A stretch of DNA of 27,699 nt from a virus. The stretch spans positions 12,196-39,894 of IMG/VR virus record IMGVR_UViG_3300030060_004320; one strand, 5' to 3'. A model generated the notes under the pieces. The model saw only the letters and a list, made by a program, of their open reading frames with translations, was not told the DNA's origin and did not search any database. A program made the position numbers and the translations under genes. Below, in pieces: positions 2,253 to 27,699 of the stretch; positions within the stretch are counted from its first letter, which is position 1, and each line of letters starts with the position of its first letter.

Positions 2253-2413
2253 TGGGAAAAATATTAGGAACAGTTGCAACAAAATTATTAAGTGAAAAAG
2301 TATTAATTGCTATAGTTTTAAAAGTTGGTGATTGGCTTGTACAAAGAAGTTCTAACAAACTTGATGACAAAATCTGGGCTGAGGTAAGCAAAGCATTAAA
2401 GATAGATGGCTAA
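2252..2413 (+). CDS. Small amphipathic helical protein
   Basis: 53 aa. The ATG overlaps the preceding stop (TAATG) and has GGAG seven bases upstream. The coding frame runs to a TAA at 2411-2413, eight bases into the next gene. A hydrophobic stretch in the first half (KVLIAIVLKVGDWLV) is followed by NKLDDKIWAEV and a basic tail. Short proteins with this plan, a hydrophobic helix then a (N/D)xLDDK-type amphipathic helix, occur next to lysis or tail genes in many phages, usually without a known function. It may associate with the membrane. Placement between overlapping genes makes it very likely real. Confidence 0.66.
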   Translation: MGKILGTVATKLLSEKVLIAIVLKVGDWLVQRSSNKLDDKIWAEVSKALKIDG

Positions 2414-13698: not shown

Positions 13699-16600
13699 AT
13701 GGATTTTAAAAAAGATACAATTCTTTCCGTAATGAAAGAAAACTTTCCACATGTAGGATGGGAAGACTCGCAATATTGGGAACTAGCAAGAACAAAATTT
13801 CCAGAATTTAATTTACCACCTGCTGATAGTATATTTGTTGAAGAAGAACAATATACAAGCAATCCAATGGATATTGAAGTAACCACTGATTCAATTAATA
13901 ATTTTACAGATAGTTTAGATTATATATTTGAAAATCAAGAAAAAGCTCTTAATGATAATCCACCGCAAACCTACAAAGAATATGAAAGTAAATATGGTTT
14001 AACTAATAGAATACCAAATATAGATTCTCCAGAGTGGAAACAAAAAACTTCACAAATACAAAGAGAACAATTTTTAGAAAATCAAAAAAAAGGTTTAGAA
14101 TTATCTGATGTAAATCCTTTATCACCTATAACAAGCATAACCGAAAAACTTTTTAAAGAAAGTAAAGCAAATTATATAAGTGGAGTTGGAGCTTTATTAA
14201 CAGACCCAGAAAGCTGGGGAGGACAGTATGTACCTGAAGCTAGAAGAGAATCAATAAAGTCAGCTTTAAACCAAACTGTTCCTGCATTGCAGTACAGAGA
14301 AATGTATGGGGAAGATTTATATGATGTAGATTATAGTAAAATCAACAATGATGTAAAGGACATTATACTACAAGGCATAGTTGCTATGGCTGACCCAACA
14401 ACTCTAATATCATTTATGGGTGGATATGGAGTTGGTGTAAAAGGAGCGCAAATGACGGTAGGTAAGGCTGGAAGTCGTTTACTACCTCAAGTAATGAAAT
14501 GGGCGCAGAAAAATTATCCAAGATATTTTATAAGAGGAAAAAATTTAAGTCCTTCACTAACTGAAAGAGTAGTCAAAAATTCTGGAGAATTTATTAACAA
14601 AATGGCTACTGGAAGTATAGGGATGGGTTCAGGTAGCGCAGTAATTGGTCAGTTTAATTCAAGGGCAGACCAAAGAAGCAAAAGAGGTAAATATGTTAAT
14701 GGCGATGGTTCTGTAAATTTTGTAGATACAATGATGGATACTTGGGAATATTTCAAAGATGGAGCTGTTGCTGGAGCTATATTACATGGCGTAGCAACAC
14801 CATTAGCTAAAGCGCAGATGTGGACAAATGCTAAATGGAAAATGGGTTCAAGGAATGCAAGTGTCTATGCAGGAAAAGTTTTGACTAATCCTATATCTAG
14901 AAACAGTATAATAGGTGCATCGTTTGCAAGTTCCATGCTATTAGATGAAGAATACTCAAAACAATTTAATGACGCAGATGGTAACTTTAGTTATGCAAGA
15001 TTTGCAGCAGCTTCATTTACGTATGGTGCTACAATGCCTTTATTGTTTGGAATAAGAGACATGGTGTTAAGGCCAAGACTTAAAAAGGGGCTTACTGTAA
15101 GAGATAAAAATGTAGATAGACAATCACGGCAAGACCGTACAAAAACTGAACCAGTAGAAGCTGAATTTGAAGTAGTAGAGAATAATAGAATTGCTAAATA
15201 TGATGTAAATAATTCAAATACTGCTATTGTTCCTCAAAATAAAAGTGTGCCACGTTTATTGAATCGTATACAAAATGATATTATTAAAGACATTAAACAT
15301 GAGTCAAATAAAAGTATTGACATAGAGCATTCATCAAATGAAGTATCAAAAGAATTAAATAGAAGCATTAAGAATATATCAGAAGATATGGGTGTAGAAA
15401 CACCGTTTGAATTTTTTGAAACTGATATTAATAGACAAACACAAGCGTTAGAAACAATAGATGGCCTAAAGCAAATATCTACAATAGTAAGAGATTCATT
15501 TAAGATACTAAACAAAGCAGGAATAAAAAATGAAGAAGGTGATTATGTTAGCGTTGATTTATCCAAACTAACAGACGATGATATTGCATTCTTGACAACC
15601 GTTATGCCTGTTGCATTAGATAGTTATAATGGCTATATAATGAGATATTACAATGAAACTATTGACTTAAATAATCTTACAGATGGGCAAACAGAATATT
15701 TAAATAGATTTAAAGAAGAATACAAAGTTGAAGAATTATCTGATGCTCAAAAAACAAGCATATTGAAAGCATTAGAAACAAAAATAAATAGTTATGATAT
15801 TATTAAAAAGAATATCAATGATACTGTTATTGAGGGTTTAGCAAAAAATGAACAAATACCTAAAAAGAAAAAAGCTGTTTTAGATGAATCCAGAGAAGAG
15901 GTTGTTAATGCTGATGGAGATATTATAAACATAGATAAATTAGAAGCCAATAAATATAAAAATGAGGGCAAAGTATTAACAGTTGCTGATGCTAAAAAAC
16001 AAGGAATTGATATCAATGAACCTGAACAACTTGCTACTGCAATATCAAGACTATCAAGAAGAATTGAAGATTTAGGAAAATTTGTAATTGAAATTAAAGA
16101 CGAAAAATCTAAAAAATATAAAAATACTAGATTAACAGATAAAGAAATTGAAGGATTAACAGAAAATATAAAAGGCGATGAGCTTGAAAAAATAGCAAAA
16201 ACAAAATCTTCTGTTGCTGCAATTAAAGACAAACTTGATATTGCTGCGTTAAGTGAAGTAATGACACCATCTTATATAAATAAATACATGCCATTTGTAA
16301 GTAAGCTTTTAAAAAGTTCTAACAAAAAAAGTCTAATTAATATAACAAAAAAAGATGTTGTTAATTTTTTAGATGGCCTAATAGAACAAAGAAGAGCTAA
16401 GGGAGCATTAGCAGCCATATCTACAGGAGAAACCACTGCTTTAAGAAGAACATTCAAAGAATTAAAAGATGCAGATTTTATTAAAACTCATCCTGCTCCA
16501 GATTCGATATTAGGTGAATATACAAAAAAATTAGGAGAAGAAAAAGCAGCTAAAACTTTAGAAAGACCATCTTTGCCTGCTATGGAGGTTTGGTTTAAAG

Positions 16601-19600
16601 AATCAGGTAAATTAACTAAAAAATTTAAAAATGCATCAGAAGCAGATAAATTAGGATTATTATTAGCCGATAGATATCCAATAAGGATAGAAGAAATAAA
16701 TGCATTAAGAGGTGCGCACATTAAATTTGAAGATGATGTTTATTTTATAGAATTAACTCGTGGGACAAAAACTAAAGACCCTCAAGGTATAAAAGGTGCA
16801 GCAAAAAATAAAGGCGTAAAAACAGGTAGAATAGTTTACCTTCCAAAATCGCTTGCTTTAAAAATACAAAAACTTGGAGCAAAAAATCCTGCAGAACTAT
16901 TGTTTCCAAAATTTTCAACAAAAGTTACAGGAGCCTTAAAGACAATTCCTGAATTTAAAGGAGTAAAGGCAAAAGATTACAAAAGACAAATAATTACGTT
17001 TGCTGGAACAGATGCTGTTGGTCTTACTCCTCAAGAAAGGTCTGCATTTAATTTAATGGCAGGTCATGCAATGGACGCTGCTTCTTTAACTGAGGCAGAT
17101 AAATCAATCATAAAGTTATATGAAAACAAACAAGATAGAAAAACTTTATTAGCAATACAAAAAAGAGCTTTAGAAAAAATTGCTAATGCAAGAGAGCAAA
17201 TTGAACAAGGTCAATTAGGTAAATTTGAAGAAGCATTTATTGAAGGCATTAAAGCTCCTGGACTTACTATTAAAGATGTTAGTGGAAAACCACCAAAAGA
17301 ATCTGCAAAACAAATTTCCAAAGAAGTTGATAAAGGCAAAGATATAAATAAAGAGTTAAAGAAAAAACTTATTGGTGATACAAAATTAATATTTAGAGAA
17401 ATTACAAAAGATATGAATGCTTCTGATGCAATGGAGATGGCAGATTTTTATGCAAAACAAGCAGGCATTGAAGATGCTGACAATTTTATAGGAAAATTAA
17501 ACATGAATACTCCTTCAGAGGAGATAGCATTATTTGTCAATGAAATATCAAGAGCAGAAACAACAAAACTAAAACAAAGAAAACAATCTGCTTTAAGATT
17601 TAAAAACATTATGATTGCAAAAGATAAACTGGTTGATGCAGGTTATGATGAAAATGCTCAAAAACAGTTCATTAAAAAGATTTTTGATGAGTATAGGGAT
17701 TTACCTGATGACCAAGTTAGTCTTTTAAATTTATCTGAGATACAAACTATAAGTTTACTCGATATCATCAATACAAGTCCTGAATTTAAAACAAGAAATA
17801 GATTTTCAAATATACAAGATGCAATAAACATTGAAAATGTACAAAAAATAGTTAGAGATGTTCCTACACGACAACAGATTGCACTAGAAACTTATCTTCT
17901 TGGTGATGCAACGCAAGGATTTGCATGGCTGGATAAACAATTAAAAACTGGAGGAGTATTAACTCAGCTAGGTTTAGATTTAGCAAAACACTCAGCAATC
18001 GAACAAGATGTAGGTGGTCTTTTAAAAGGTTTTGAAGTTGAGGCATATAAAATTTTACACTATGATGCTGTTGAAAAAGGGAAGTTTGTTACTCCTGCAA
18101 TAAGAAAGCAAAAGAAAGTTTATATTAATGGCAAGAAAATATTTGATAAAGAAATTAAAAATAAGCTGTGGACTTTAGAACCAAAAAGATATCCAAACTT
18201 AAAAAAACATGTAGAAAAACATCCAGAAGATAAAGTAGCAGTAAAACGATTAGAAAATGTTGAAAGTTTTTACAACAATATATATACAGACAAAGGGACA
18301 TTAAGAATAGATACTGTTGAGAGTCAGATTGCAAGAGTATATTACAAGTATACAAGAAAAATTATGGACATGATAAAAATTGCTTTGCGAAAATCCATGA
18401 ATGATGCGCAGTATCAAAAGTTTATAAAGCAAAATCCCATACAAGAAATTATAAAACATTTTTACGTGCCGTATACAATTACAAAAGATTTTAAAAACTT
18501 TTACGACCCTAATACTTTAAATCTTATAAGACAAGAACAAAAGGGAGCTTTGTATCATGCGCAAAAATTAGCTGAACAAAAATATGGGACAGCTAAAGTT
18601 ACTCCTGAACAAATCAATGAGTTTTATGAAAAAGGAAGAGCGTTAGCACGTGCAGATTTGCTTACAATGTCTGACTTTGGTGCAAATATGTTTAATCCTA
18701 AGCATATGTTAAAAAGAAAAATGTATTTAGGAGAAAGAGTATTTATATCAAAAGAAAACAAGTGGATAGACGTATATAATACAGAGTATGATGCATATAT
18801 GCCATCTTATGCAGGAGCATCTGCAAAACTTATAGCAAATCTTGAAGCTTTACCTTTTATGGTAGACATGCCAGGATTAAAAATAAATAAAAACATACCA
18901 AAAATTTTAGTTGATTTATCAAGAGAAAAAGGTGTTATACCTCGATATATACATAATATGATATCTTCTAGGTCTGGTTTAATGACACCACAAGACTATG
19001 GTCCACTTGGATATATTGCTAGATTTATAGGCTCAGGTAATAAATATATATCAAGGGTAAATTTATCTGGTATTGGAAGTCCAGTTAAAAATTTTAGAAT
19101 TGCAATGTCTCAAAATGCTTTAAGGTTTGATTTAAATGACATATGTTATAATGCAGCAAGAGCAATGTCTTTTGCAAAAAGAATGGAAGCCTCAAGAACT
19201 GGATACATGGGGCTTAGTTTGTCAGGGTTGACAGAAGCAGATAATACTTTTGTCAATAAACTGTTTGACGATTTATTTAATACTATGAGATTTCCAACAT
19301 CTGAACAAATTGGTCGTTTAAGTAGTATGTTTTTATCACTACAAAGATTACCAAAATTTGTTGATGATTTGAGATTGCCAAACATGCCTGATGGTTCTGT
19401 TCCTAAAAAAAGAAAAACAGCAGAAAATGAAGCTACAAGTTTTTATAAACTAAGTAATGCTGACATTATAATAACAGATACACCTGGAAGAAAGATTATA
19501 ATTAAAGGTGGGCAGATAGAACTATTAAAAAGATTTGGATTAGCTTCAGCAGAAGTTGATTATACAGGAAGAGAGTCTGTAGGTGTAAAAGGAATAGATG

Positions 19601-21066
19601 TAAAAAGATTTAATAAAGCAGGAGAAGTCATAAAATTTGATGGAGAAACATTTAAACTAACACCTAATGAAAGAGCAAAACTGCAAAGTGAATTAGATAT
19701 TGTGCATTTGCAAATACTACAAATGGCTCATATGCAAACACAAGCATCAACTGTAGATATATTTCAACCAGCATTTTTATTATCAGATAAATCAGGATTA
19801 GTAAAAGCAGGTATGTTATATACACAGATAGCTATGAACTCAACAAATATAATTGTTCAAGCCTTTAAAGATTCTCATAAATCTGGTAACTACCATCGTA
19901 TATTAGCCTATTTAGCAACTGCTTATGGATTAAATGAAGCTGCTGAATATTTTCTTTATGACTTAATGAAAATAAAAACAAGACCAGGAGAACTGGATAG
20001 GCATTTAAGAGACAAATTATTTAGAGGTTTACAAAATGCAGAGGTAGGAGGAATTGGTTCATTTATGTTTGGCATTGCAAACGGTGAGGCGCCATTAGGC
20101 AATCCTTTGTTTCCATTTGCATTTGCTTCTCAATCAGTAGATATATTTAATACTTTATTAGATATTGCAGCATATGGTCTTGAAAAAGGAGACGTAGAAT
20201 TTCAAAAAGTAAATTGGTGGAGAAAACATCTTATAAGAGATAAGAGATATTTTCAATCAGTAGAAGATGCCACTGAGAGTATAGGTGCAGCATATCGTGA
20301 TTTTAAAAGCACTTATCTTAATAATAATCATCCATATAGATTGCAACAAAAAAAATTAGATGATTTAGAAAGAAAATTCTACAAAGATACTCCATTTATG
20401 CAGCCAGAGATTATAAAATATAGTGTGATGACAGGACATTACAGAGAAATAAAAGAAGCATTTGAAAAATCTGGTGGGGTGTTTCAAGGATTCTATAAAA
20501 TGCAACCAGAAGATTGGGACCATTTTAACGATGTAATTATTAATGCGTGGTGGGCAAGAAAAAATCTATATATAGAAGGCGGTATGCTTCCAGACGAATC
20601 ATCTAAGGCAGCATCAAAAGCGATAGAAGACAAACTAATGTCTTTGCATCCAATATTAAATGGACAAGGAAACAAAAAAGATTCTAAGAAATATATGACT
20701 ATAAGAAATGAATATAAAGCTTATGTACAAAAACTAGCATTAGACCAAGGTAAAGATAAAAACTTTTATTGGAGCGCAGCACTAGAACAAGAAAAAAAAT
20801 ACTACCTAAAAATGGATAGATTTTTAAAACAATGGTCGAAATGGATATCCAATCACGACAATTATAAACTTGAAGAAAATTTAAAATATTTCAAAAAGCT
20901 TTATCCTACACGTTGGGACCAAACACTTGGAATCATACCATCAGACAAAACTTTAAAGAAATACAAAGGCAAATTTGTCCCAATAAAGCTAGATTCAGCT
21001 AAAGTTATGGATGCAGGAAGAATTGAAAATCTTGCTCGAGAGTTAAATATGCGTGGAATTAAATAA
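13699..21066 (+). CDS. Giant internal virion / polyvalent-type protein with embedded tyrosine-recombinase-like domain
   Basis: 2455 aa. The gene is last in the internal-virion cassette and sits where T7-like phages have gp16, but is nearly twice that length (gp16 is about 1318 aa). The first ~470 residues mix charged helices with hydrophobic helices (ADPTTLISFMGGYGVG near 235; ASFASSMLL near 410; FTYGATMPLLFG near 440), as in proteins that enter the cell envelope. About residues 480-845 are charged coiled coil. Residues ~846-1150 read as an integrase-type core-binding and catalytic domain (separate entry). Residues 1150-2455 are mostly helical, with a second hydrophobic set near 2030-2150, resembling large polyvalent proteins delivered with phage DNA. 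I see no lytic transglycosylase motif. No clear Shine-Dalgarno precedes the ATG; it lies three bases after the previous stop, so re-initiation is likely. The 3' end overlaps the convergent nuclease gene by 24 bases. Confidence 0.72.
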   Translation: MDFKKDTILSVMKENFPHVGWEDSQYWELARTKFPEFNLPPADSIFVEEEQYTSNPMDIEVTTDSINNFTDSLDYIFENQEKALNDNPPQTYKEYESKYGLTNRIPNIDSPEWKQKTSQIQREQFLENQKKGLELSDVNPLSPITSITEKLFKESKANYISGVGALLTDPESWGGQYVPEARRESIKSALNQTVPALQYREMYGEDLYDVDYSKINNDVKDIILQGIVAMADPTTLISFMGGYGVGVKGAQMTVGKAGSRLLPQVMKWAQKNYPRYFIRGKNLSPSLTERVVKNSGEFINKMATGSIGMGSGSAVIGQFNSRADQRSKRGKYVNGDGSVNFVDTMMDTWEYFKDGAVAGAILHGVATPLAKAQMWTNAKWKMGSRNASVYAGKVLTNPISRNSIIGASFASSMLLDEEYSKQFNDADGNFSYARFAAASFTYGATMPLLFGIRDMVLRPRLKKGLTVRDKNVDRQSRQDRTKTEPVEAEFEVVENNRIAKYDVNNSNTAIVPQNKSVPRLLNRIQNDIIKDIKHESNKSIDIEHSSNEVSKELNRSIKNISEDMGVETPFEFFETDINRQTQALETIDGLKQISTIVRDSFKILNKAGIKNEEGDYVSVDLSKLTDDDIAFLTTVMPVALDSYNGYIMRYYNETIDLNNLTDGQTEYLNRFKEEYKVEELSDAQKTSILKALETKINSYDIIKKNINDTVIEGLAKNEQIPKKKKAVLDESREEVVNADGDIINIDKLEANKYKNEGKVLTVADAKKQGIDINEPEQLATAISRLSRRIEDLGKFVIEIKDEKSKKYKNTRLTDKEIEGLTENIKGDELEKIAKTKSSVAAIKDKLDIAALSEVMTPSYINKYMPFVSKLLKSSNKKSLINITKKDVVNFLDGLIEQRRAKGALAAISTGETTALRRTFKELKDADFIKTHPAPDSILGEYTKKLGEEKAAKTLERPSLPAMEVWFKESGKLTKKFKNASEADKLGLLLADRYPIRIEEINALRGAHIKFEDDVYFIELTRGTKTKDPQGIKGAAKNKGVKTGRIVYLPKSLALKIQKLGAKNPAELLFPKFSTKVTGALKTIPEFKGVKAKDYKRQIITFAGTDAVGLTPQERSAFNLMAGHAMDAASLTEADKSIIKLYENKQDRKTLLAIQKRALEKIANAREQIEQGQLGKFEEAFIEGIKAPGLTIKDVSGKPPKESAKQISKEVDKGKDINKELKKKLIGDTKLIFREITKDMNASDAMEMADFYAKQAGIEDADNFIGKLNMNTPSEEIALFVNEISRAETTKLKQRKQSALRFKNIMIAKDKLVDAGYDENAQKQFIKKIFDEYRDLPDDQVSLLNLSEIQTISLLDIINTSPEFKTRNRFSNIQDAINIENVQKIVRDVPTRQQIALETYLLGDATQGFAWLDKQLKTGGVLTQLGLDLAKHSAIEQDVGGLLKGFEVEAYKILHYDAVEKGKFVTPAIRKQKKVYINGKKIFDKEIKNKLWTLEPKRYPNLKKHVEKHPEDKVAVKRLENVESFYNNIYTDKGTLRIDTVESQIARVYYKYTRKIMDMIKIALRKSMNDAQYQKFIKQNPIQEIIKHFYVPYTITKDFKNFYDPNTLNLIRQEQKGALYHAQKLAEQKYGTAKVTPEQINEFYEKGRALARADLLTMSDFGANMFNPKHMLKRKMYLGERVFISKENKWIDVYNTEYDAYMPSYAGASAKLIANLEALPFMVDMPGLKINKNIPKILVDLSREKGVIPRYIHNMISSRSGLMTPQDYGPLGYIARFIGSGNKYISRVNLSGIGSPVKNFRIAMSQNALRFDLNDICYNAARAMSFAKRMEASRTGYMGLSLSGLTEADNTFVNKLFDDLFNTMRFPTSEQIGRLSSMFLSLQRLPKFVDDLRLPNMPDGSVPKKRKTAENEATSFYKLSNADIIITDTPGRKIIIKGGQIELLKRFGLASAEVDYTGRESVGVKGIDVKRFNKAGEVIKFDGETFKLTPNERAKLQSELDIVHLQILQMAHMQTQASTVDIFQPAFLLSDKSGLVKAGMLYTQIAMNSTNIIVQAFKDSHKSGNYHRILAYLATAYGLNEAAEYFLYDLMKIKTRPGELDRHLRDKLFRGLQNAEVGGIGSFMFGIANGEAPLGNPLFPFAFASQSVDIFNTLLDIAAYGLEKGDVEFQKVNWWRKHLIRDKRYFQSVEDATESIGAAYRDFKSTYLNNNHPYRLQQKKLDDLERKFYKDTPFMQPEIIKYSVMTGHYREIKEAFEKSGGVFQGFYKMQPEDWDHFNDVIINAWWARKNLYIEGGMLPDESSKAASKAIEDKLMSLHPILNGQGNKKDSKKYMTIRNEYKAYVQKLALDQGKDKNFYWSAALEQEKKYYLKMDRFLKQWSKWISNHDNYKLEENLKYFKKLYPTRWDQTLGIIPSDKTLKKYKGKFVPIKLDSAKVMDAGRIENLARELNMRGIK
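16234..17148 (+). other. Tyrosine-recombinase-like domain inside the giant virion protein (residues ~846-1150)
   Basis: The N-terminal part matches the SAM-like core-binding domain of tyrosine recombinases: a TPSYINKYMPFVSKLLK helix, then ITKKDVVNFLDGL, then TTALRRTFKELKDADFI and a following HPAPDSIL linker. The catalytic part shows PIRIEEINALRGAHI (candidate Arg at 996, the box I arginine), a strand pair with ELTRGTKTK and KTGRIVYLP (lysines 1024 and 1041), a box II-like AKDYKRQIITFAG (1091-1103), LMAGHA (GH at 1122-1123) and a candidate tyrosine in KLYEN (1141). Box II usually reads HxxR; here the aligned positions are Lys1092 and Lys1095 with Arg at 1096, so the active site may be altered. 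The GH-to-Tyr distance (18) is longer than the usual 9-10. Confidence 0.68.
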
Positions 21067-21441
21067 TTCTTTAATTGGCAGTAATGCCATCTGACTCATA
21101 TTATCGTCTCCACCCATCACCATTTTTAAATTACCATCTTTATGGCGTTTTTTTATAAAAGCCTTAAGTAAGTCTACCTGGAATATAAATCCGCCCTGTA
21201 TGACACCTTTATAGCTCAATAAATGCACCCATGTGCTTGATTCTGTTGTTGATATGCCTGATGGATAGCCTTTATACTTCAATTCAATAGCAATATTGCC
21301 TGTTGTTTTCCATATATCTCTTTCGGTCTTTACCTCTATCTTATTGTTACCATCTTGCATGTCTTTGACAAAGGCTTCACCTAGTTGTCCAAACTTTAAA
21401 TCTAAGTCAAAACCTTTAGCATATTCTTCTGTTACTTTCAC
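21043..21441 (-). CDS. PD-(D/E)XK-like nuclease (resolvase/endonuclease type)
   Basis: 132 aa from a GTG at 21441, which has GGGAGG at 21449-21454, seven bases upstream. The frame could extend to a TTG at 21507, but no ribosome site is seen there. Core motifs: FGQLGEAF (Glu22), KIEVKTE (Glu36-x-Lys38, the E-x-K of the PD-(D/E)XK fold), TGNIAIE (Glu53) and PSGISTTESSTWVH. This last is a pattern shared by a family of small phage nucleases related to Holliday-junction or flap-cutting enzymes. The first acidic residue of the classical motif is not certain. It is the last gene of the leftward block and its 3' end overlaps the giant virion gene on the other strand by 24 bases. Role inferred: processing recombination or replication intermediates. 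Confidence 0.68.
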   Translation of the reverse strand: MKVTEEYAKGFDLDLKFGQLGEAFVKDMQDGNNKIEVKTERDIWKTTGNIAIELKYKGYPSGISTTESSTWVHLLSYKGVIQGGFIFQVDLLKAFIKKRHKDGNLKMVMGGDDNMSQMALLPIKELFNSTHI

Positions 21442-21448
21442 CCATGTA

Positions 21449-21454
21449 CCTCCC
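21449..21454 (-). promoter_or_regulatory. Ribosome binding site that decides the nuclease start
   Basis: Reading the minus strand, AAGGGAGG stands seven bases before GTG at 21441. This is the strongest site in the neighbourhood and argues for the GTG over the TTG at 21507. An out-of-frame ATG lies between the site and the GTG. Confidence 0.65.
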
Positions 21455-21503
21455 TTTTGTCTGTAGCATTCTCCAAATATTCTTATTATATCTTGTAAGT
21501 ATA

Positions 21504-21659
21504 TCAATCGAACGGCAGATATACTTCTGCGGTAGCCTTACAATTTGAACATGAAAAATTACTTACAATGCCTTCTCTTTCCAAACCGTAATCTTCATAA
21601 TCAAAATCACCACCCCATATCATATCTTCACCACAATGCCAACATTTTAGTTTACTCAT
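21504..21659 (-). CDS. Small zinc-ribbon protein
   Basis: 51 aa from the ATG at 21659, which is preceded by AAAGGAG seven bases upstream. The frame stays open to 21689, but that start lies deeper inside the RuvC gene without a site. Two CxxC knuckles (CWHCGEDM near the N terminus; CSNCKATAEVYLP near the C terminus), spaced by about 26 residues including an acidic loop, form a four-cysteine zinc ribbon. Proteins of this size and plan are common in phages and have no single known role. It overlaps the RuvC stop by eight bases and sits between two nuclease genes, so a role in nucleic-acid metabolism is likely. I cannot be more specific. Confidence 0.72.
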   Translation of the reverse strand: MSKLKCWHCGEDMIWGGDFDYEDYGLEREGIVSNFSCSNCKATAEVYLPFD

Positions 21660-22131
21660 TAAAAAACTCCTTTTTTGCGTAGTGTGCAATCAATATTGCA
21701 TCAGCTGTTTTAAGTGTTACTTTCTTTAATTTAGGATACAACTTCTTTGCTTTTGCCTTAAGCCATCTCTTTCTGTCTGCTACTGGCAATGCTTTGGGAC
21801 AGCCTACCCATTTTATCCAATCGTTTGGCAGTGTTGTATACATCTTTATTTCATATGATGCTGCAACACCAAGCCACTGCCCATAGTTAACACCGTATGT
21901 AAATGCAGCTCTTACTGCGTTACCTGGTCTTGCCCATACTCTCTCCATCAATAGTTTTACATTATCTGGAGCAGTATCTCCTATTATTATCTTAAATGTC
22001 ATAGACATATCTAAAACTTTTTCAGGACATTTATATGCCTCTATATTACCCTCTTCATCAATGACAGTGATGCCACCGCTTTTACCTGGGTCAATTCCTA
22101 TGTATTTTAAGTTGTTCTGGCGCTTTGACAT
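21652..22131 (-). CDS. ruvC: RuvC-type Holliday junction resolvase
   Basis: 159 aa. The N terminus has YIGIDPGKSGG (Asp14), the first strand and acidic residue of the RuvC/RNase H fold. LLMERVWARPG supplies Glu63, and KTADAILIAHYAKK supplies Asp144 at the C-terminal helix. The FTYGVNYGQWLG stretch between them matches the phage RuvC pattern. RuvC-type enzymes cut four-way junctions symmetrically using two metal ions; phage versions also debranch DNA before packaging. Bacterial RuvC has two aspartates in the last motif; here only one is evident, as in several phage forms. The start lies 41 bases inside the helicase gene, behind AGGAG. It fits with the annealase, SSB and exonuclease genes upstream in the same transcript. 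Confidence 0.85.
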   Translation of the reverse strand: MSKRQNNLKYIGIDPGKSGGITVIDEEGNIEAYKCPEKVLDMSMTFKIIIGDTAPDNVKLLMERVWARPGNAVRAAFTYGVNYGQWLGVAASYEIKMYTTLPNDWIKWVGCPKALPVADRKRWLKAKAKKLYPKLKKVTLKTADAILIAHYAKKEFFNE

Positions 22132-23446
22132 CTATCATTTCTCCTATATCATTGTGTATTTTACACTTGTTACCATCATATGCTAAATCAACATCACCGC
22201 TGTCTCCGTATCTAACCTTGCCTGCTGATATAGTTAAGATGTTTTTACCTTTACCTTGTTCTCCTCTTACCTTGTAATCATAGTAAGAAAAGAATACGTT
22301 CTCTGCTACTTGTTCTATCGCTCCACTCTCTGCTAGGTCAGATAGTTGTGGCATCAATGCCTTGCCTCTAATACCTGCTCTTTCTATCATTCTATTTAAC
22401 TGTGATGCAAGAACAACTACAGCATCTGTTTCTTTTGCTAGCCACTTATAATCATTGACAAGCTTCTCAATCTGTAATCTTCTTTGGTCTTCTCTGCTAT
22501 CGCATGCAATAAGCTGTATGTAATCATCAAATATAATGTCAGGCTGGAACTTCTTAACCTCGCTTGATGATGCAGCAAAGTCTCTGACGTTATCAAACAT
22601 CAAGAACCTATCACTTGCATACTTCTTTCTTACAAAAGCAAGAGAATCATCAAAATGTTTCAGGGAGTTATTGTCCCATATATTCTTTCTGACCTGCCCA
22701 TAAGATAGCTTTCCTGATTCCAGACATACAATCTTTTTTACAAGCTCAGAGTTTGGCAGCTCCCTGCTAAAGAATATGGCTTTGTAATCATTTTCTAGTA
22801 TATTGGCAAGCATATTAATCATGACAGTTGTCTTACCATGTCCTGGTCTACCACCTATAATTGTTATCTCTCCTCTTGTAAGACCACCAGAGAACGCATC
22901 AATCTTATGATAGCCTGTCTTAATTAGTTTTGATGTTTTGTTCTTTACACTGTCTACTGTCTCTGCTATGATGTCTTCAATGTCTGTAGCCATGCTGGGA
23001 CGCACGTCCATCAATTCAGACAAGACAGAGTGTGTTTCGCTTATAACTTTATATATATCTTTTTCATTGTCTTCAGCATGCATCTTTATCTCTTCTGCTT
23101 TAACAATAATCTTTCTTAATAAATATTTTTCGTACAGTTTGTTGGCATAAAACTCCGTCATGCCTTTGACGCACGAATCTGAAGTACATCCTGTAATGTA
23201 ATGTTTGGTAAGTCCTTTGTTAATGTCGTCCTGTGTTACAGACATACACACAGTTAAAGTATCTATGGTTTGCTTATCACGAACCATTTGCTTTATTCTG
23301 TTCCACAGGAGTCTAGCTCTCTTCTGATAGAACACACTACTATCAGTAAAGTACCTAGCCGCAGCCTCATATTCCCCTGCATTTGTTATCACAGAACCTA
23401 ATACTGCATCTTCTGCTGTCGCATCATATGGTAATGCATTTTCCAT
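22091..23446 (-). CDS. dnaB: Replicative DNA helicase, DnaB family
   Basis: 451 aa, a full-length match to DnaB-type helicases. The N-terminal domain opens PYDATAEDAVLGSVI, as DnaB proteins do. The RecA-like domain has Walker A GGRPGHGKT (residues 198-206), Walker B PDIIFDDY (302-309), the SQLNR motif (348-352), then LSDLAESGAIEQVAENV, the switch around the arginine-finger region, and a late GKVRYGDSG segment. The hexameric ring unwinds the fork 5' to 3' on the lagging strand using ATP. No primase domain is fused and no DNA polymerase is in view. AGGGAG precedes the ATG. The 3' end overlaps RuvC by 41 bases in another frame. Confidence 0.93.
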   Translation of the reverse strand: MENALPYDATAEDAVLGSVITNAGEYEAAARYFTDSSVFYQKRARLLWNRIKQMVRDKQTIDTLTVCMSVTQDDINKGLTKHYITGCTSDSCVKGMTEFYANKLYEKYLLRKIIVKAEEIKMHAEDNEKDIYKVISETHSVLSELMDVRPSMATDIEDIIAETVDSVKNKTSKLIKTGYHKIDAFSGGLTRGEITIIGGRPGHGKTTVMINMLANILENDYKAIFFSRELPNSELVKKIVCLESGKLSYGQVRKNIWDNNSLKHFDDSLAFVRKKYASDRFLMFDNVRDFAASSSEVKKFQPDIIFDDYIQLIACDSREDQRRLQIEKLVNDYKWLAKETDAVVVLASQLNRMIERAGIRGKALMPQLSDLAESGAIEQVAENVFFSYYDYKVRGEQGKGKNILTISAGKVRYGDSGDVDLAYDGNKCKIHNDIGEMIDVKAPEQLKIHRN

Positions 23447-23467
23447 TTTATCTCCCTATTTTTTTGC

Positions 23468-23653
23468 TTAAAGCTTATTAACTAAAACCTGTATTCTTTC
23501 TTTTACTACGTTAATTAACTTTTCATCTATTATTGTTCCAAACTCAGTAGTTTCGCCAATGTTATTTTGATAGTATCTTAAATCGGCTTTTAACCAATCT
23601 ATAACTTGCTCTCTGTCTGACCTTCCTCGGAACTGTCCTTTGCTTCGTGGCAT
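23468..23653 (-). CDS. Small hypothetical protein
   Basis: 61 aa, with GGAG five bases before the ATG. It begins with a basic stretch (PRSKGQFRGRSDRE) followed by helices (VIDWLKADLRYYQNN; LINVVKERIQVLVNKL). Not recognised. The basic head could touch nucleic acid, but that is only a reading of composition. The start lies 55 bases inside the preceding gene and it ends 21 bases before the helicase start, so the two are probably co-translated. Confidence 0.6.
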   Translation of the reverse strand: MPRSKGQFRGRSDREQVIDWLKADLRYYQNNIGETTEFGTIIDEKLINVVKERIQVLVNKL

Positions 23654-23835
23654 TGATTCTCCGTTTGCGTTATCTCTCTCTTAATAGCATCATAGAGCCT
23701 ATCTGATGCAACCTCGTTTACTTTATACATCTTCATGCCATCCTGAGTAGGATATCCTTCAATCGGCTCACCTTTGAAAAATATACCCCATTCATTATCG
23801 GATAACACTTTAGATAATAGTTCATACACTTTCAT
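23599..23835 (-). CDS. Small hypothetical protein
   Basis: 78 aa from the ATG at 23835, behind a GAGGGA site. The frame is open to 24030, but the extra stretch is Lys/Glu low complexity that overlaps the 108-aa gene, and its upstream starts lack a site. The protein has a compact-looking middle (NEWGIFFKGEPIEGYPTQDG, then YKVNEVASDRLYDAIKREI) and a Glu/Ser-rich disordered tail. No family recognised. It overlaps its neighbours at both ends: 14 bases upstream and 55 bases downstream. Confidence 0.6.
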   Translation of the reverse strand: MKVYELLSKVLSDNEWGIFFKGEPIEGYPTQDGMKMYKVNEVASDRLYDAIKREITQTENQCHEAKDSSEEGQTESKL

Positions 23836-24148
23836 TATCTGTTCCCTCTTTTTTTTTACTATTTGACTTTTTTTTTCTACTGTCTCCTGCTCCTTTATTG
23901 CTTCCTGTAGACTTAGAAACCTTTTGTTGTTCGTTGTTACGTGAACTATCGCCATTTCTGTCTTTATTAGACTGCTCAATTTTTTTATTGAGGTATTTAA
24001 TAAAGTCTTCTTTTTCGTTTTTATATTCATGATATGTCTCAGTAATATACTCTAATTTATTTATCTTTGCTATCATCGCCTGTATCTGCTGAATCATCAG
24101 ATTCATCACCTTCTCCATCTCCTTGATTGTCGGCTTCTTCTTTGACAT
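23822..24148 (-). CDS. Small coiled-coil protein with basic disordered tail
   Basis: 108 aa, with GAGGAG a few bases before the ATG. The first ~65 residues form a helical coiled coil (MEKVMNLMIQQIQAMIAKIN). The rest is a Ser/Lys/Asn-rich basic tail with KKKSNSKKK, likely disordered. The first 92 bases overlap the preceding gene, which encodes a strongly acidic tail in another frame. No family recognised; a scaffold or nucleic-acid-associated role can only be guessed. Confidence 0.58.
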   Translation of the reverse strand: MSKKKPTIKEMEKVMNLMIQQIQAMIAKINKLEYITETYHEYKNEKEDFIKYLNKKIEQSNKDRNGDSSRNNEQQKVSKSTGSNKGAGDSRKKKSNSKKKEGTDNESV

Positions 24149-24299
24149 CTTCTGTCTCCTCTATTATTTCTTCTTCTTCAAATACTGCGTTTGTTACCTC
24201 AGATAATTCACTAGCCATACCTCTGACTATATTATCTAATCTTTCTAGCTTTGTTTTTAACATTTCAATATCTTTTTGCATGTCTATTGCTCTACCCAT
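24057..24299 (-). CDS. Small protein with long acidic tail
   Basis: 80 aa, with AAGGAG at ideal spacing before the ATG. The N-terminal 40 residues are a coiled-coil-like helix (MQKDIEMLKTKLERLDNIVR). The second half is almost all Glu, Asp, Ser and Gly (EEEEIIEETEDVKEEAD, then GDGEGDESDDS). Acidic tails of this type occur on DNA mimics and on proteins that bind SSB-like or histone-like partners, but nothing here fixes a role. Its last 92 bases also encode the start of the next, basic-tailed protein. Confidence 0.6.
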   Translation of the reverse strand: MGRAIDMQKDIEMLKTKLERLDNIVRGMASELSEVTNAVFEEEEIIEETEDVKEEADNQGDGEGDESDDSADTGDDSKDK

Positions 24300-24489
24300 T
24301 ATTATCTCCTTTATTTATCGGCCCATTGTTTTGTATTCCAGTAGGAATATTTTCTCTTTCCATTCCGTACGTTGGCATATCTCTGTGTGTTACCACTGTA
24401 CCATCTCTCTTTTGACTCCAAGCTATCTTGTTTTTTGGACAAAACCTCATTCTGGATTTTCCCCAATTTTTTTTGAAAGCGTCTGCCAT
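24292..24489 (-). CDS. Small hypothetical protein, basic
   Basis: 65 aa from the second of two adjacent ATGs (24489), six bases after AAGGAG; the first ATG (24492) is too close to the site. The sequence holds a compact basic core (MRFCPKNKIAWSQKRDGTVV, then HRDMPTYGMERE) and a Gly/Asn tail whose codons double as the ribosome site of the next gene. Not recognised. Most of it (179 bases) overlaps the 3' part of the preceding gene in a different frame, so one of the two readings could be partly spurious. Confidence 0.5.
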   Translation of the reverse strand: MADAFKKNWGKSRMRFCPKNKIAWSQKRDGTVVTHRDMPTYGMERENIPTGIQNNGPINKGDNNG

Positions 24490-24766
24490 CATTATCTCCT
24501 TTATTTTTTTCATTATCTTTTTCTGTATCTTGTTTTATAAATTTAAATTTTTTAATTTTGAAATCAGGATACAATTCTTTAATGTCATCACACATTTTAT
24601 TATAAGTATAAATTGACATACGGTTAATATCTTGTTCATCCATTAAGCGCAGGTCACAATCACCGCAGCTACTATAATAATATATATGATTCATATCACT
24701 GTCAATTCTAATATAATCCATATCATCATAACCCTGCACATAATCTTTTAATCTAATTAATACCAT
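24311..24766 (-). CDS. Hypothetical protein with acidic N-terminal half
   Basis: 151 aa, with AAGGAG before the ATG. The N-terminal ~85 residues look like a folded acidic domain (LKDYVQGYDDMDYIRID, a CGDC pair, and CDDIKELYPDFKIKKFKFI). After about residue 85 the sequence becomes Lys/Asn/Asp/Gln low complexity. It is here that the 65-aa gene begins in another frame, so the genuine protein may once have ended near residue 95 and been extended by read-through of a lost stop. Unknown family. It follows the GC-rich hairpin at 24788-24842, which lies in its leader. Confidence 0.52.
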   Translation of the reverse strand: MVLIRLKDYVQGYDDMDYIRIDSDMNHIYYYSSCGDCDLRLMDEQDINRMSIYTYNKMCDDIKELYPDFKIKKFKFIKQDTEKDNEKNKGDNDGRRFQKKLGKIQNEVLSKKQDSLESKERWYSGNTQRYANVRNGKRKYSYWNTKQWADK

Positions 24767-24787
24767 TGTTTATCTCCTTATTTATCC

Positions 24788-24842
24788 CTTGTAGGGAGTG
24801 GGAGAGCAGAGTGATATGACGTGGGGTCTCCGCCCTCCCAAG
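24788..24842 (-). other. GC-rich imperfect hairpin between HTH gene and 151-aa gene
   Basis: In this AT-rich genome an isolated GC-rich block forms an inverted repeat. CTTG (24788-24791) pairs with CAAG (24839-24842), GGAG (24795-24798) with CTCC (24835-24838), and GGAGA (24801-24805) with TCTCC (24827-24831), around a 21-base loop. No T-run follows on either strand, so it is not a classic intrinsic terminator. It could be an RNA leader structure for the downstream gene, a protein-binding site or a replication-related element. Confidence 0.55.
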
Positions 24843-24846
24843 ATTA

Positions 24847-24990
24847 TTATCTATTAATGTGTCTATATACGGTAGCCCTCGACAATCCCACCACTTTCTT
24901 TATGCGCTTAACAGGCATTCCCATCTTGTACATAAAGTTTATAAACACTTTCTTTGTTTTGCTTATTTTTCTATTAGAACGGTATCGCAT
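24847..24990 (-). CDS. Small helix-turn-helix DNA-binding protein
   Basis: 47 aa. The ATG at 24990 lies inside the end of the SSB-like gene, six bases after GGAG, and the frame stops at TAA (24847-24849). After a basic N-terminal arm comes FMYKMGMPVKRIKKVVGLSR followed by ATVYRHIN. This is a textbook helix-turn-helix like that of resolvase/invertase C-terminal domains: a first helix, then G-x-P/S-v-x-x-I at the turn, then GLSRATVYRHI as the recognition helix. With nothing else attached, it is best read as a small regulator or a DNA-binding accessory protein. The GC-rich hairpin begins five bases after its stop and is a natural candidate binding site. Too short for most gene callers. Confidence 0.72.
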   Translation of the reverse strand: MRYRSNRKISKTKKVFINFMYKMGMPVKRIKKVVGLSRATVYRHINR

Positions 24991-25612
24991 TGTTATCTCC
25001 AGCTATGGTTTTAACTTGACCTTCCGCCCACTTCTTAATAAACTTAGCATCCCAGTATTGTCTTCTCTTACCTTCTTTGTCTGTCCAAGGTCTCCCTAGG
25101 TCAACAAAAGCAATACCTGGTTTACCAAGCATGTCCGCTTCATTAAGATTTGGTAGCAACTGTACTTCTATCTCGTTGCCATCTACAACTCTCTTTTCTA
25201 CAGGGCATTCAATGCCAATAGATTCACAGAATCTCATGTATCCTTGGTTGCCCTCTGGGTATGATTCAAAGCTATCGTTAGCTGTTGGTTCTAAAAACCT
25301 CCAGACCTTACCTCTGAACTTACTGCCCACGTAGCAGTCACCTTTAGTATCCTCCATCTCTCCATTTATGTTCTCATACTGAAAAGTAACTTCTTTGTTT
25401 TCTACGGATGCTTCAAAGACATAGGTATATAACCTAGCTCTATGCTTGCCTCCCTTTACATCTACTTTCTTTGATGTGCATTCTATAATGTGACCAAAGT
25501 AATCACCTTTAGCAAAAGGTTTGTAATCGTTCTTCTTTTCCTTCTTTTTACCAGGAATAAAGAAACTTTGTTCTCCAGTTACACTATCGAATGTTTCATT
25601 GATATCAGCCAT
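24974..25612 (-). CDS. SSB-like single-stranded DNA-binding protein (DUF669-like)
   Basis: 212 aa. The N terminus has an acidic start, a PGKKKEKKN stretch and then KPFAKGDYFGHIIECTSKKV, resembling the first strands of an OB-type fold. The middle has aromatic strands (YVFEASVENKEVTFQYEN; YVGSKFRGKVWRFL) and ends with GRPWTDKEGKRRQYWDAKF. The C terminus is DNNAIPF, like the IPF tip through which SSB proteins bind partners, although with less acidity before it. Similar phage proteins next to a Sak-type annealase are generally SSB-like. The start overlaps the annealase stop (TAATG), supporting a joint role in recombination. The fold assignment is inferred, not proven. Confidence 0.6.
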   Translation of the reverse strand: MADINETFDSVTGEQSFFIPGKKKEKKNDYKPFAKGDYFGHIIECTSKKVDVKGGKHRARLYTYVFEASVENKEVTFQYENINGEMEDTKGDCYVGSKFRGKVWRFLEPTANDSFESYPEGNQGYMRFCESIGIECPVEKRVVDGNEIEVQLLPNLNEADMLGKPGIAFVDLGRPWTDKEGKRRQYWDAKFIKKWAEGQVKTIAGDNNAIPF

Positions 25613-26193
25613 TATTTATCTCCTTTTTTGTTTTGTTTTTTACCGTTTATCATTCCTTCGACTTTTTCAATACATGCGTTGTAGTTATGTGCATGAATTG
25701 CCATCTCTTGTACCTTGACTTTTAAGTTATCAACTATGTCTTTACCAAGAGGTTCAGCTAACTTATACAGCGCTGTTTCCTCATCAGGCGTTATTGCATC
25801 AGGTTCAGGTAAGTCCTCACCCGCAAAGATGTATAATCCTAATCCATGCAATGCAATAGTTTTAGCTAAAGCTCTTTGTATGCTTGTGTTGATATTAAAA
25901 GCATTTGGTTCGTTTATTGGTTGATTTCTATTGTCAAGCACAGGATGTATCTGTGATAGTGATATACCATCAACTTCTACCCATACGTCAACAAAATAAC
26001 CGCACTCTGTTACAAAGAACGGTGAACCATTCTCTGCTTTTGTTACCCCATATCGAGCATCAGGACATTCTTTCTTAAGTAATGCCCATGCATCTGCCCA
26101 AGACAAATAAGTAAACTTTCCCTTTTTCTTCTGATATTTACTTACGTCTGTTTTATAGAGCTTCATGAATGTGCTTTGTGTTGTTTTACTCAT
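25612..26193 (-). CDS. Single-strand annealing recombinase, Sak/DUF1071-type
   Basis: 193 aa from the ATG at 26193, five bases after AAGGAG; a GTG at 26199 sits inside the site and is unlikely. Family signatures are FTYLSWADAW (residues 27-36), then a WVEVDGISLSQIHPVLD strand pair, then INTSIQRALAKTIALHGLGL (101-120) and YIFAGEDLP. These match the Sak-like (DUF1071) group of phage ssDNA-annealing proteins, related to Rad52. They coat ssDNA produced by an exonuclease and anneal homologous strands during recombination-dependent replication. Its neighbours supply the rest of that reaction: the exonuclease gene ends nine bases upstream, and the SSB-like gene starts in its stop codon. A C-terminal Lys-rich tail may be disordered. 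Confidence 0.82.
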   Translation of the reverse strand: MSKTTQSTFMKLYKTDVSKYQKKKGKFTYLSWADAWALLKKECPDARYGVTKAENGSPFFVTECGYFVDVWVEVDGISLSQIHPVLDNRNQPINEPNAFNINTSIQRALAKTIALHGLGLYIFAGEDLPEPDAITPDEETALYKLAEPLGKDIVDNLKVKVQEMAIHAHNYNACIEKVEGMINGKKQNKKGDK

Positions 26194-26202
26194 ATTCACT
26201 CC

Positions 26203-26967
26203 TTATCGTTGTGGATTGCAATGGTCTAGAAACTGACAGTAATTACACTGCCAATCTTGTACAGGTGATACACCTTTTCTAAACGGTGGCAATCCTTGTT
26301 CATGTTCGTCTTTTGTGTTACTCCAGAACAAGTAGGCTCTTGAAACGTATGTTAAAGGTACCGACGTTGCCTTCATCATGGACGTATCCTTATTGTAATA
26401 ATACAAAAACATTCCATCAAGCCTACCGAACTGTTGCTTCACTGCATACCCGTATGTACCAAGTTGCAATTCATAGTGGATAGAAGGATTAAAAGCAGGC
26501 TTTCTACCAAACTTCATCTTCCATGCATAACCACCACAAGTTTTCAAATCATACAGGTAAACCTTTTCTCCCTCTACTACGATATCATAAAAACCTCTGA
26601 CGTTTAACTCTTCGATTCTTATCTCTCCTTCAGTATGGAATTTAATTTCTTTTTCTTTATTTTCTTTTTCTTTTTCACTAGAGATATCTCTATTATTATC
26701 TCTATTATAATAGTGAAGGGCTTTTTCAAAATCATCATGCACAACATTACCAAGCCTCAATAATCTCTTCGTCTTTGCGTCTAATGGATTTGTTGGTTCT
26801 ACTTGCATTACAGATTCAAAGTACAATTTTCTTGAACAACTACCAGCTCCGCTTGCATGGTACCAACTTTCATTGCCAGCATATCGCTTTAAGCGGTTTT
26901 CTTCCTGTTTATTGTTGAGATAATCGTTGTATATACCCTCTATATCAATTGGACTTTTAACCACCAT
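26203..26967 (-). CDS. Cas4/RecB-like PD-(D/E)XK exonuclease with Fe-S cysteines
   Basis: 254 aa. Motifs in order: SGAGSCSRKLYFE with Cys44; LGNVVHDDF with His77; GFYDIV with Asp128; LYDLKTC giving Asp140-Leu-Lys142; YELQLGTYGY with Gln168; and a terminal WQCNYCQFLDHC giving Cys241, Cys244 and Cys250. The order His, Asp, D-x-K, Q-x-x-x-Y is the RecB/Cas4 nuclease core. One cysteine before it and three after it are the 4Fe-4S set of Cas4 and AddB-type nucleases. A Lys/Glu/Asn-rich low-complexity insert lies at about residues 88-108. There is no CRISPR array or cas1 here; beside an annealase the likely role is resecting dsDNA ends. The start overlaps the RHH gene by 11 bases. Confidence 0.85.
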   Translation of the reverse strand: MVVKSPIDIEGIYNDYLNNKQEENRLKRYAGNESWYHASGAGSCSRKLYFESVMQVEPTNPLDAKTKRLLRLGNVVHDDFEKALHYYNRDNNRDISSEKEKENKEKEIKFHTEGEIRIEELNVRGFYDIVVEGEKVYLYDLKTCGGYAWKMKFGRKPAFNPSIHYELQLGTYGYAVKQQFGRLDGMFLYYYNKDTSMMKATSVPLTYVSRAYLFWSNTKDEHEQGLPPFRKGVSPVQDWQCNYCQFLDHCNPQR

Positions 26968-27115
26968 TTTTAGCCCTTTTTACGCAATCATCAATTAAGT
27001 GATTTAAACAATCATTTACCGTATCAAAGCCTAAAATGTAAGAACATCCCTTGAATGTCTTCCACTTTTCCTTGCTTACTTTTACTTGATAGGTTACTAA
27101 TTCATTATCTTTCAT
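26957..27115 (-). CDS. Ribbon-helix-helix protein (Arc/CopG-like)
   Basis: 52 aa from the ATG at 27115, six bases after AAAGGA; upstream in-frame starts to 27148 lack a site. The pattern is YQVKVSKEKWKTFKGC (a strand running into helix 1), then LGFDTVNDCLNHLIDDCVKR (a turn and helix 2), the length and hydrophobic spacing of a ribbon-helix-helix dimer. Such proteins bind DNA as dimers through the strand and usually repress their own operon. It is the first gene after the only ~100-base gap in the leftward block, where a candidate promoter lies, which suits autoregulation. Two or three cysteines are unusual for the family. Confidence 0.6.
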   Translation of the reverse strand: MKDNELVTYQVKVSKEKWKTFKGCSYILGFDTVNDCLNHLIDDCVKRAKNGG

Positions 27116-27179
27116 ATGTTTTCCTTTCATATATACATATCCTAGCATGTATATTATTATTTGTTATTATTTATTCCTA

Positions 27180-27208
27180 ATATTATTTTCATTTATTTTT
27201 ATTCTCAA
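27180..27208 (-). promoter_or_regulatory. Possible sigma-70-type promoter for the recombination genes
   Basis: In the gap 27116-27215, reading leftward, TTGAGA (27203-27208) is followed by a 17-base spacer and TAATAT (27180-27185). This matches the -35/-10 consensus at 5 of 6 and 4 of 6 positions. A second TTGAGA lies at 27214-27219. The gap holds no convincing gene and precedes the RHH gene. The AT-rich background makes chance matches common. Confidence 0.32.
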
Positions 27209-27215
27209 TAGTGTC

Positions 27216-27302
27216 TCAATCACTATATACATCTATTTCTATCTCTTCAAGAAACCTATCAACCTTTTCTGATAGGGTCCTCAAATCTTCATTTGTTATC
27301 AT
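27216..27302 (-). CDS. Possible 28-aa acidic peptide
   Basis: A short frame starts with ATG inside the end of the 87-aa gene (overlap 14 bases) and stops at TGA (27216-27218). The peptide is an acidic amphipathic helix (NEDLRTLSEKVDRFLEEIEI). No separate ribosome site is clear, so it would depend on coupled translation. The heptad-like pattern and the overlapping arrangement used by every neighbour argue for a gene, while the size argues for caution. Confidence 0.35.
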   Translation of the reverse strand: MITNEDLRTLSEKVDRFLEEIEIDVYSD

Positions 27303-27552
27303 CCTTGATAATCTTCTGAGACTTACTTGTGTTTCTTTTATTAGTGTTATCGCTTGCTTTATGTCCTTGATGTGTATCGCCATCTTTTCCCCTTTCTTCT
27401 TTTAATATTTTAGCAATAGATTCAATCATCTCTGCTATTTGTTTTATCTTTTTGCTATTATCATGTACTTGTAAGTACAAGTTATGAAATTGCATATCCT
27501 TTAGTTTTATAAGTTCTATGACTTCCGTATTTGTCATTCTTTTTTCTTCCAT
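27289..27552 (-). CDS. Small coiled-coil protein
   Basis: 87 aa, with AAGGAG at good spacing before the ATG. The first ~55 residues form a continuous helix with coiled-coil spacing (VIELIKLKDMQFHNLYLQVH, then IKQIAEMIESIAKILKEE). The tail is Asn/Lys/Asp/Ser-rich and probably disordered. No family recognised. It sits early in the leftward block among small accessory genes. Confidence 0.6.
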   Translation of the reverse strand: MEEKRMTNTEVIELIKLKDMQFHNLYLQVHDNSKKIKQIAEMIESIAKILKEERGKDGDTHQGHKASDNTNKRNTSKSQKIIKDDNK

Positions 27553-27562
27553 TTTTTCTCCT

Positions 27563-27637
27563 TTATCTTAATATTGATTTAATTATTGTGTACAATGTGT
27601 ACAATACTAGTATTAATCCTAATGTTCCTTCTATCAT
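27563..27637 (-). CDS. 24-aa single-span membrane peptide
   Basis: The ATG at 27637 overlaps the stop of the upstream gene (TAATG) and has GGAGGG just upstream. The peptide is almost one hydrophobic helix (GTLGLILVLYTLYTII) with a basic end (KSILR), giving a clear membrane-span pattern with positive charge inside. Tiny membrane peptides like this are frequent in phage early regions, with no known function for most. The good ribosome site and the junction support translation. Confidence 0.48.
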   Translation of the reverse strand: MIEGTLGLILVLYTLYTIIKSILR

Positions 27638-27699
27638 TATCCCTCCATTCCATAATATTCTTTTTCTGTTTTTCCAAAATACTCCCAAACTACTATTTG
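27637..27699 (-). CDS. 3' end of an unknown gene running off the right edge
   Basis: Twenty codons are open from the right edge to TAA at 27637-27639, ending WEYFGKTEKEYYGMEG. The stop overlaps the ATG of the 24-aa peptide, and the last codons double as that gene's ribosome site, the arrangement used throughout this block. Too little is visible to name it. Confidence 0.45.
   Translation of the reverse strand, partial: QIVVWEYFGKTEKEYYGMEG

Follow-up and report, generated by a model that had tools for sequence, protein, structure and literature searches.

The window, i.e. the whole stretch of 27,699 nucleotides analysed here, covers positions 12196-39894 of a 39,894-base virus record; the part of the record to its left encodes the terminase large subunit, the portal and the major head protein. 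A block of leftward genes in the window encodes a PD-(D/E)XK nuclease, a Sak annealing protein, an SSB-like protein, a DnaB helicase and a Holliday-junction resolvase. The plus strand carries two very long ORFs, 13699-21066 (2455 aa) and 2406-7859 (1817 aa); a PHROG scan up to E 0.01 gave no match for the latter. Behind the SSB-like gene lies a GC-rich inverted repeat (24788-24842), which the earlier note had placed in the longest gap of the middle of the leftward block. This gap is partly filled by a 47-aa helix-turn-helix (HTH) ORF, which is shorter than the 50-aa minimum of the ORF list, so that only 80 nt (24767-24846) are left around the repeat. The match of this ORF to Pfam HTH_7 (resolvase-type helix-turn-helix) is barely above the cut-off. 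The 212-aa protein upstream is labelled SSB-like because of its ..IPF tail and its neighbours only; Pfam, PHROG and NCBIfam give no match for it. The following features, all on the minus strand, surround the repeat:

24311-24766, minus: 151-aa downstream gene, with other genes in its place in relatives
24774-24778, minus: AGGAG, resembling a Shine-Dalgarno sequence and belonging to the next gene; the 3' arm is predicted to pair with it as an alternative
24785-24797, minus: small second hairpin UCCCU-ACA-AGGGA, predicted; identical letters in L001-L003
24794-24798, minus: CUCCC tail directly 3' of the stem, not part of the 13-bp helix
24799-24811, minus: 3' arm of the stem, CUCUGCUCUCCCA, pyrimidine-rich (by folding)
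24812-24827, minus: 16-nt loop, ACCCCACGUCAUAUCA; several relatives also have CCCAC-like loops
24828-24840, minus: 5' arm of the stem, UGGGAGGGCGGAG, purine-rich, kept in relatives via wobble or compensating changes
24847-24990, minus: 47-aa ORF encoding a helix-turn-helix (Pfam HTH_7, 24.9 bits; cut-off 23.8); the end of the SSB-like gene overlaps with it
24974-25612, minus: 212-aa SSB-like protein, C-terminus AIPF, the syntenic anchor of the slot described below
25612-26196, minus: Sak single-strand annealing protein (Pfam SSAP_Sak, 140 bits), the next gene upstream of the SSB-like gene

The three paired blocks and the 21-base loop of the repeat are present as first described, and so is the contrast in base composition: with 60% GC the repeat is the GC peak of the window, ranking fifth among 27,645 55-nt positions, and the four higher ones overlap it. 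The pairing scheme drawn from these blocks held only in part, as the plus-strand pairing is weaker than a continuous stem on the minus strand, which is the sense strand of the genes around the hairpin. There, the best pairing (24840-24799) is an unbroken 13-bp stem UGGGAGGGCGGAG/CUCUGCUCUCCCA with a 16-nt loop, containing eight G-C pairs and two G-U pairs. The stem starts 6 nt after the stop codon of the HTH ORF, and the next AUG follows it at 32 nt. When the window was scanned in 55-nt pieces (step 5 nt, each strand), the repeat had the lowest sampled folding energy on both strands, namely -25.2 kcal/mol on the minus strand (-19.5 kcal/mol for the next separate site) and -20.5 kcal/mol on the plus strand (-20.2 kcal/mol for the next plus-strand site). 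Folded as minus-strand RNA, an 80-nt piece has a z-score of -3.62, and 1 of 200 shuffles folds equally well; for plus-strand RNA the values are -0.93 and 36 of 200. The hairpin also folds as single-stranded DNA (-12.8 kcal/mol, z -3.43, 0 of 200 shuffles). Extra copies of either 20-nt half were absent from the window with up to three mismatches allowed. On the minus strand, in the sense of the genes, the repeat forms a genuine RNA hairpin, which related uncultured phages have conserved.

A fixed slot with several folds

Relatives were gathered by scanning IMG/VR contigs with the SSB-like, HTH and Sak proteins. This gave 62 loci in which the slot behind the SSB-like gene was read, and 52 of them are distinct (several of these are near-identical); truncated loci (L249, L252, L253), a locus on the contig kept as L004 (L208) and 10 identical slots were dropped before the count of 52. 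Because many of the 52 slots are close kin, the slot counts given here are not independent. Of 42 loci found by the HTH scan, 15 were examined; L303 and L307 were rejected as slot members, carrying unlike HTH genes without the slot. Named phages yielded no relatives: blastn of window positions 21000-27699 against named phage records and tblastn of the SSB-like protein against 50,697 such records gave no match, and no relative was found in genome-contig scans with SSB-like alignments.

The position of the hairpin is syntenic, close behind the stop codon of the HTH ORF or, in class B (see below), of the SSB-like gene. The HTH stop codon and the stem are 4-30 nt apart in 18 of 20 A-type stems, these being the 18 that were measured. 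The next gene, however, turns over: the 151-aa gene is found in the window and L004, a 73-aa family in L001-L003, an MGRAI-type gene in L172, L232 and L233, and an MEDKLQLID-type gene in L144 and L147. As the hairpin keeps to the SSB-like/HTH end while the next gene changes, it is not one downstream gene's private leader. The HTH protein is 32-77% identical in 14 aligned relatives (up to 100% in closer ones); its segment S-ATxYRH is nearly constant, whereas the arm sequences of the hairpin vary widely. In L004 (~5990-6075), the SSB-like match ends at residue 181 and the HTH match begins at residue 28 a few bases on, as if the intervening stretch had been deleted (or misassembled); the hairpin after it is unchanged.

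Three architectures were seen in the slot. Class A (the window, L001-L007, L143-L147, L172, L227, L231-L233 and L238-L240, among others) has the HTH ORF and, after it, a stem whose 5' arm is rich in purines (fraction of 0.70-0.92 in 20 stems) and whose loop is often CCCAC-like. A CUCC/CCCC-type tail lies at most 3 nt from the stem in 13 of these 20 stems and is lacking in the other 7. The window's own loop is conserved among near relatives only. Class B (15 of the 52 distinct slots, without the HTH ORF) has a 15- to 20-bp stem located 10-20 nt past the SSB-like stop codon and a loop GUAAUGUCA...UUUAGAAA, in which GUAAUGUCA is invariant in 13 of 13 sequences and UUUAGAAA nearly invariant, while the stem covaries. 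A covarying 15-bp stem of this class is found in L158, L219, L180, L221, L223, L155, L226, L173, L229, L230, L237, L241 and L243. Directly 3' of the class B hairpin, L170, L173 and L184 share a conserved stretch, AUUGyGAGAUGUrCAAU...ACAUCGGCGGCAGGUAGG; the class B loop could pair with ACAUC in this stretch, and a pseudoknot is therefore possible. Class C (L285-L292), located within ~180 nt past the HTH ORF, is a three-way junction with an outer stem UGGGAGA/UCUCCCA and a GNRA-type loop; its second domain, a second hairpin and UCGUCGAAAAGAGAA, is present in all members except L288. The folds of classes B and C are without the purine/pyrimidine design of class A. The HTH ORF occurs in class A, in class C and in some B-like slots. 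An A-type and a B-like hairpin stand in tandem in L169, L216, L217 and L231, and the HTH ORF is combined with a B-like hairpin in L148, L244, L246 and L293-L295. A few slots (L263, L264) are without a clear hairpin of these kinds. The hairpin of the window thus belongs to an RNA slot of fixed position and diverse structure in a group of uncultured phages.

The Rfam 15 models gave no match at gathering scores for the window and 14 relative loci and none at E up to 2 for 11 further loci. The 25 relative loci stand for 25 contigs, of which L146, L172 and L169 carry class A hairpins; neither the class B loci scanned nor the seven class C loci scanned (L290 left out) had a match. The element was not recognised in the titles and the beginnings of the abstracts of open-licence PMC papers either. 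A DNA pattern GGGAGGGC...GCTCTGC, run across viral contigs, was rejected as too loose (at least 120 stretches); among the matches listed with surroundings below 48% GC, element-like ones occurred on already known contigs only. Searching with the class B loop pattern yielded 19 stretches. Of these, 7 are neighbours of Sak and SSB-like genes on known contigs and show the class B fold; the remaining 12 lack both a Sak or SSB-like match and a hairpin of this kind.

Pairing, wobble and covariation

In 36 of the 52 distinct slots the best stem scores above the 95th percentile of 307 control stretches, and in 16 it does not; no slot stem exceeds the highest control score (20.2). Internal wobble pairs in the slot stems, which were found without preference for either wobble type, comprise 113 G-U and 14 A-C, versus 462 G-U and 319 A-C in the control stretches (Fisher p 5e-12, with rows that are not independent). 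As the wobble pairs are mostly of the sense-RNA type, RNA is favoured over duplex DNA.

Covariation was strongest in class B. In an alignment of 13 sequences with 15 pairs, 191 of 191 cells are paired, compared with only 24-66% if the helix is slid out of register. Both sides changed in 8 of the 15 pairs (1 of 500 shuffles was as high), and the covariation score was matched by none of 500 shuffles, which ignore relatedness; the count of further pair types was not unusual (52 of 500 shuffles). For class C, RNAalifold showed both-side change in 13 of 36 pairs, the alignment used being imperfect at the outer stem. For class A, two sets of four sequences were aligned. The set A8 (window, L003, L006, L227) has 96.2% of cells paired and two pairs changed on both sides, and its covariation score is reached by 27 of 500 shuffles; the corresponding values for A7 (L143, L144, L145, L147) are 96.0%, two pairs and 63 of 500. 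L005 was left out of A8 since MAFFT misaligned its 3' arm, and a further alignment, A11, was not used for counts, as it included antisense matches. Judged from these alignments, covariation in class A, the window's own class, is thin, and the case for a new structured RNA is better supported by the class B hairpin than by that of the window. Class A 5' arms formed helices of 7.0 bp on average with the 3' arms of other loci and of 12.1 bp with their own (at least 10 bp in 36 of 306 swapped and 17 of 18 own combinations), which is not counted as evidence because the own arms had been selected for pairing.

The covariance model R2, built from A8, was run over 37 sources, and its first 10 places are all slot hairpins (three of them training sequences). 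L005 (E 3.9e-5) and L146 (0.0026) are the only two below 0.01 from outside the training set; L172 (0.024), L147 (0.089), L144 (0.14), L143 (0.6) and L233 (0.6) follow, ahead of any other place in these sources. On the record's other 12,195 bases (L265), R2 had no match up to E 5. The class B model, R1, had no match up to E 5 in the window, and its best match outside class B was L148 (E 0.02).

The suggestion that the repeat was selected as an RNA structure is thus supported for the slot, with its fixed position, kept pairing and sense-type wobble, and more thinly for the window's own class. Loss of pairing in relatives had been named as what would speak against it; the inner stem is kept, but the outer CTTG/CAAG block is lost in L005 and L006. 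The further suggestion of a binding site or replication element is disfavoured as far as duplex DNA is concerned, since the arms differ in sequence between relatives and the wobble pairs point to one of the two strands; a role as single-stranded DNA on the minus strand is possible.

Possible roles of the slot hairpin

The cluster is arranged in the order nuclease, Sak, SSB-like, tiny HTH gene and then variable genes, and these genes presumably share one mRNA. The hairpin probably helps to control this shared messenger. Among the readings considered, a cis-acting, intercistronic function is the likeliest: we tentatively propose (at a probability of about 0.42) a structured RNA element between genes of the leftward recombination/replication cluster that serves as an insulator or translational attenuator. 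In the window's subgroup, the purine 5' arm would hold the pyrimidine 3' arm and so leave the Shine-Dalgarno sequence of the next gene more open; if the 5' arm were occupied, e.g. by a ribosome ending the HTH ORF just upstream, the freed 3' arm could pair with the Shine-Dalgarno sequence. The class A 3' arm is complementary to a generic Shine-Dalgarno sequence and, as the downstream genes have GGAG-like sites, such an element could work with any gene placed there. The hairpin may also mark a boundary of mRNA stability.

Blocking the 5' arm in the predictions raised Shine-Dalgarno pairing in 13 of 13 loci (median, from 0.41 to 0.84), compared with a change from 0.29 to 0.27 at 147 mechanically chosen control starts (Mann-Whitney p 7e-8 for the blocked values and 5e-7 for the rise). 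With the 3' arm and the tail blocked in addition, median pairing was 0.15, and with only the tail added it was 0.82, which indicates that the 3' arm does the work; the conserved tail is thereby left unaccounted for by the attenuator model. The rise was only 0.02-0.14 in 4 of the 13 loci (L209, L210, L232, L233), and in these and in L213 even the fold without any block has the Shine-Dalgarno sequence paired to more than half. Part of the effect arises because a pyrimidine tract precedes a purine-rich site and would pair with any such site. These predictions speak for a candidate insulator or attenuator geometry, which a ribosome finishing the HTH ORF might trigger.

The slot could also encode a phage RNA that acts in trans, by itself or in a module with the tiny HTH protein; this RNA would be cut from the transcript and function through its loop or junction. 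The loop of class B, with GUAAUGUCA and UUUAGAAA held while the stem covaries, the three-way junction of class C with its GNRA-type loop and, in most members, a second domain, and the independence of the hairpin from the downstream gene all point in this direction. We nevertheless consider it somewhat unlikely. The window's loop is kept among near relatives only, a sigma-70-type scan gave no minus-strand promoter in 24706-26391, i.e. just upstream of the stem, and the RNA is a candidate for which no processing site is known; moreover, class B occurs without the HTH gene. A bolder version builds on the presence of at least three unlike RNA architectures (a purine/pyrimidine hairpin, a long stem with a conserved internal loop and a three-way junction) in one fixed slot. 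According to it, the slot, which in most cases neighbours a tiny HTH protein, would be a rapidly diversifying RNA locus of phages; its trans-acting module would be under arms-race selection and act with the HTH protein or against a host factor. We regard this as unlikely.

Alternatively, the hairpin might be an intrinsic terminator that has become degenerate or leaky, or else serve in processing or stability, and so lower expression past the recombination genes; the position directly after a stop codon would suit this. The earlier note's remark that a T-run is missing is true of the window, where the stem is followed by CUCCCUACAAGG (2 T in 12 nt). The tails of L224 and L231, however, are rich in U, and in L251, L254 and L261 a U-run occurs at the stem of this slot or behind it, which keeps terminator ancestry in play. 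The site is absent from the terminator scan, which admits loops of 3-8 nt only (here 16 nt), and the 32 nt to the next AUG in the window leave little room for a new promoter. On balance, we take this explanation to be quite improbable.

Less probable still is a DNA element, either an operator of the HTH protein or a replication/primase site acting as single-stranded DNA. Its location in a replication/recombination cluster beside an HTH gene and its ability to fold as single-stranded DNA would fit, but the arms vary widely next to the near-constant S-ATxYRH segment, and the excess of G-U over A-C wobbles speaks against the duplex form. A chance hairpin in a GC-rich intergenic patch, which the similar stem scores of some control stretches and the thin class A covariation might suggest, is hardly credible in view of the recurrence in the same slot, the wobble bias, the class B covariation and the recovery of L005 and L146 by R2.

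Comparison with known systems

The arrangement proposed for the cis-acting element resembles translational attenuators of the ermC type, in which a small ORF lies ahead of a stem and the two arms of this stem compete for a tract masking the Shine-Dalgarno sequence. Here, too, a small ORF precedes a stem, and in the predicted folds its arms would compete for a tract that could mask a Shine-Dalgarno sequence. However, the upstream ORF of ermC is a drug-sensing leader peptide, whereas here it is a conserved HTH protein with no known inducer; and, unlike in ermC, the downstream site is predicted to be closed rather than opened by a ribosome on the 5' arm. With intrinsic (Rho-independent) terminators the hairpin shares a GC-rich stem after a stop codon and differs from them in the window by its 16-nt loop and the missing U-tract.

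The slot adds an Rfam-unmatched structured RNA element to a phage group with an SSB-like gene that is likewise unmatched in the 50,697 named phage records. Furthermore, it provides a natural series, with the same upstream neighbours and different folds, for asking what an RNA does inside a recombination cluster. Should the module act in trans, it would represent a regulatory or counter-defence RNA of phages of a new kind.

A list of orphan structured RNA motifs, some of them from phages, has been compiled by comparative genomics (PMC2864571). The comparison with these motifs was made through the Rfam 15 scans only, which gave no match. The orphan motifs are, like the slot hairpin, recognised by conserved position and pairing and have no known function; unlike them, the slot holds several unlike folds at one conserved position.
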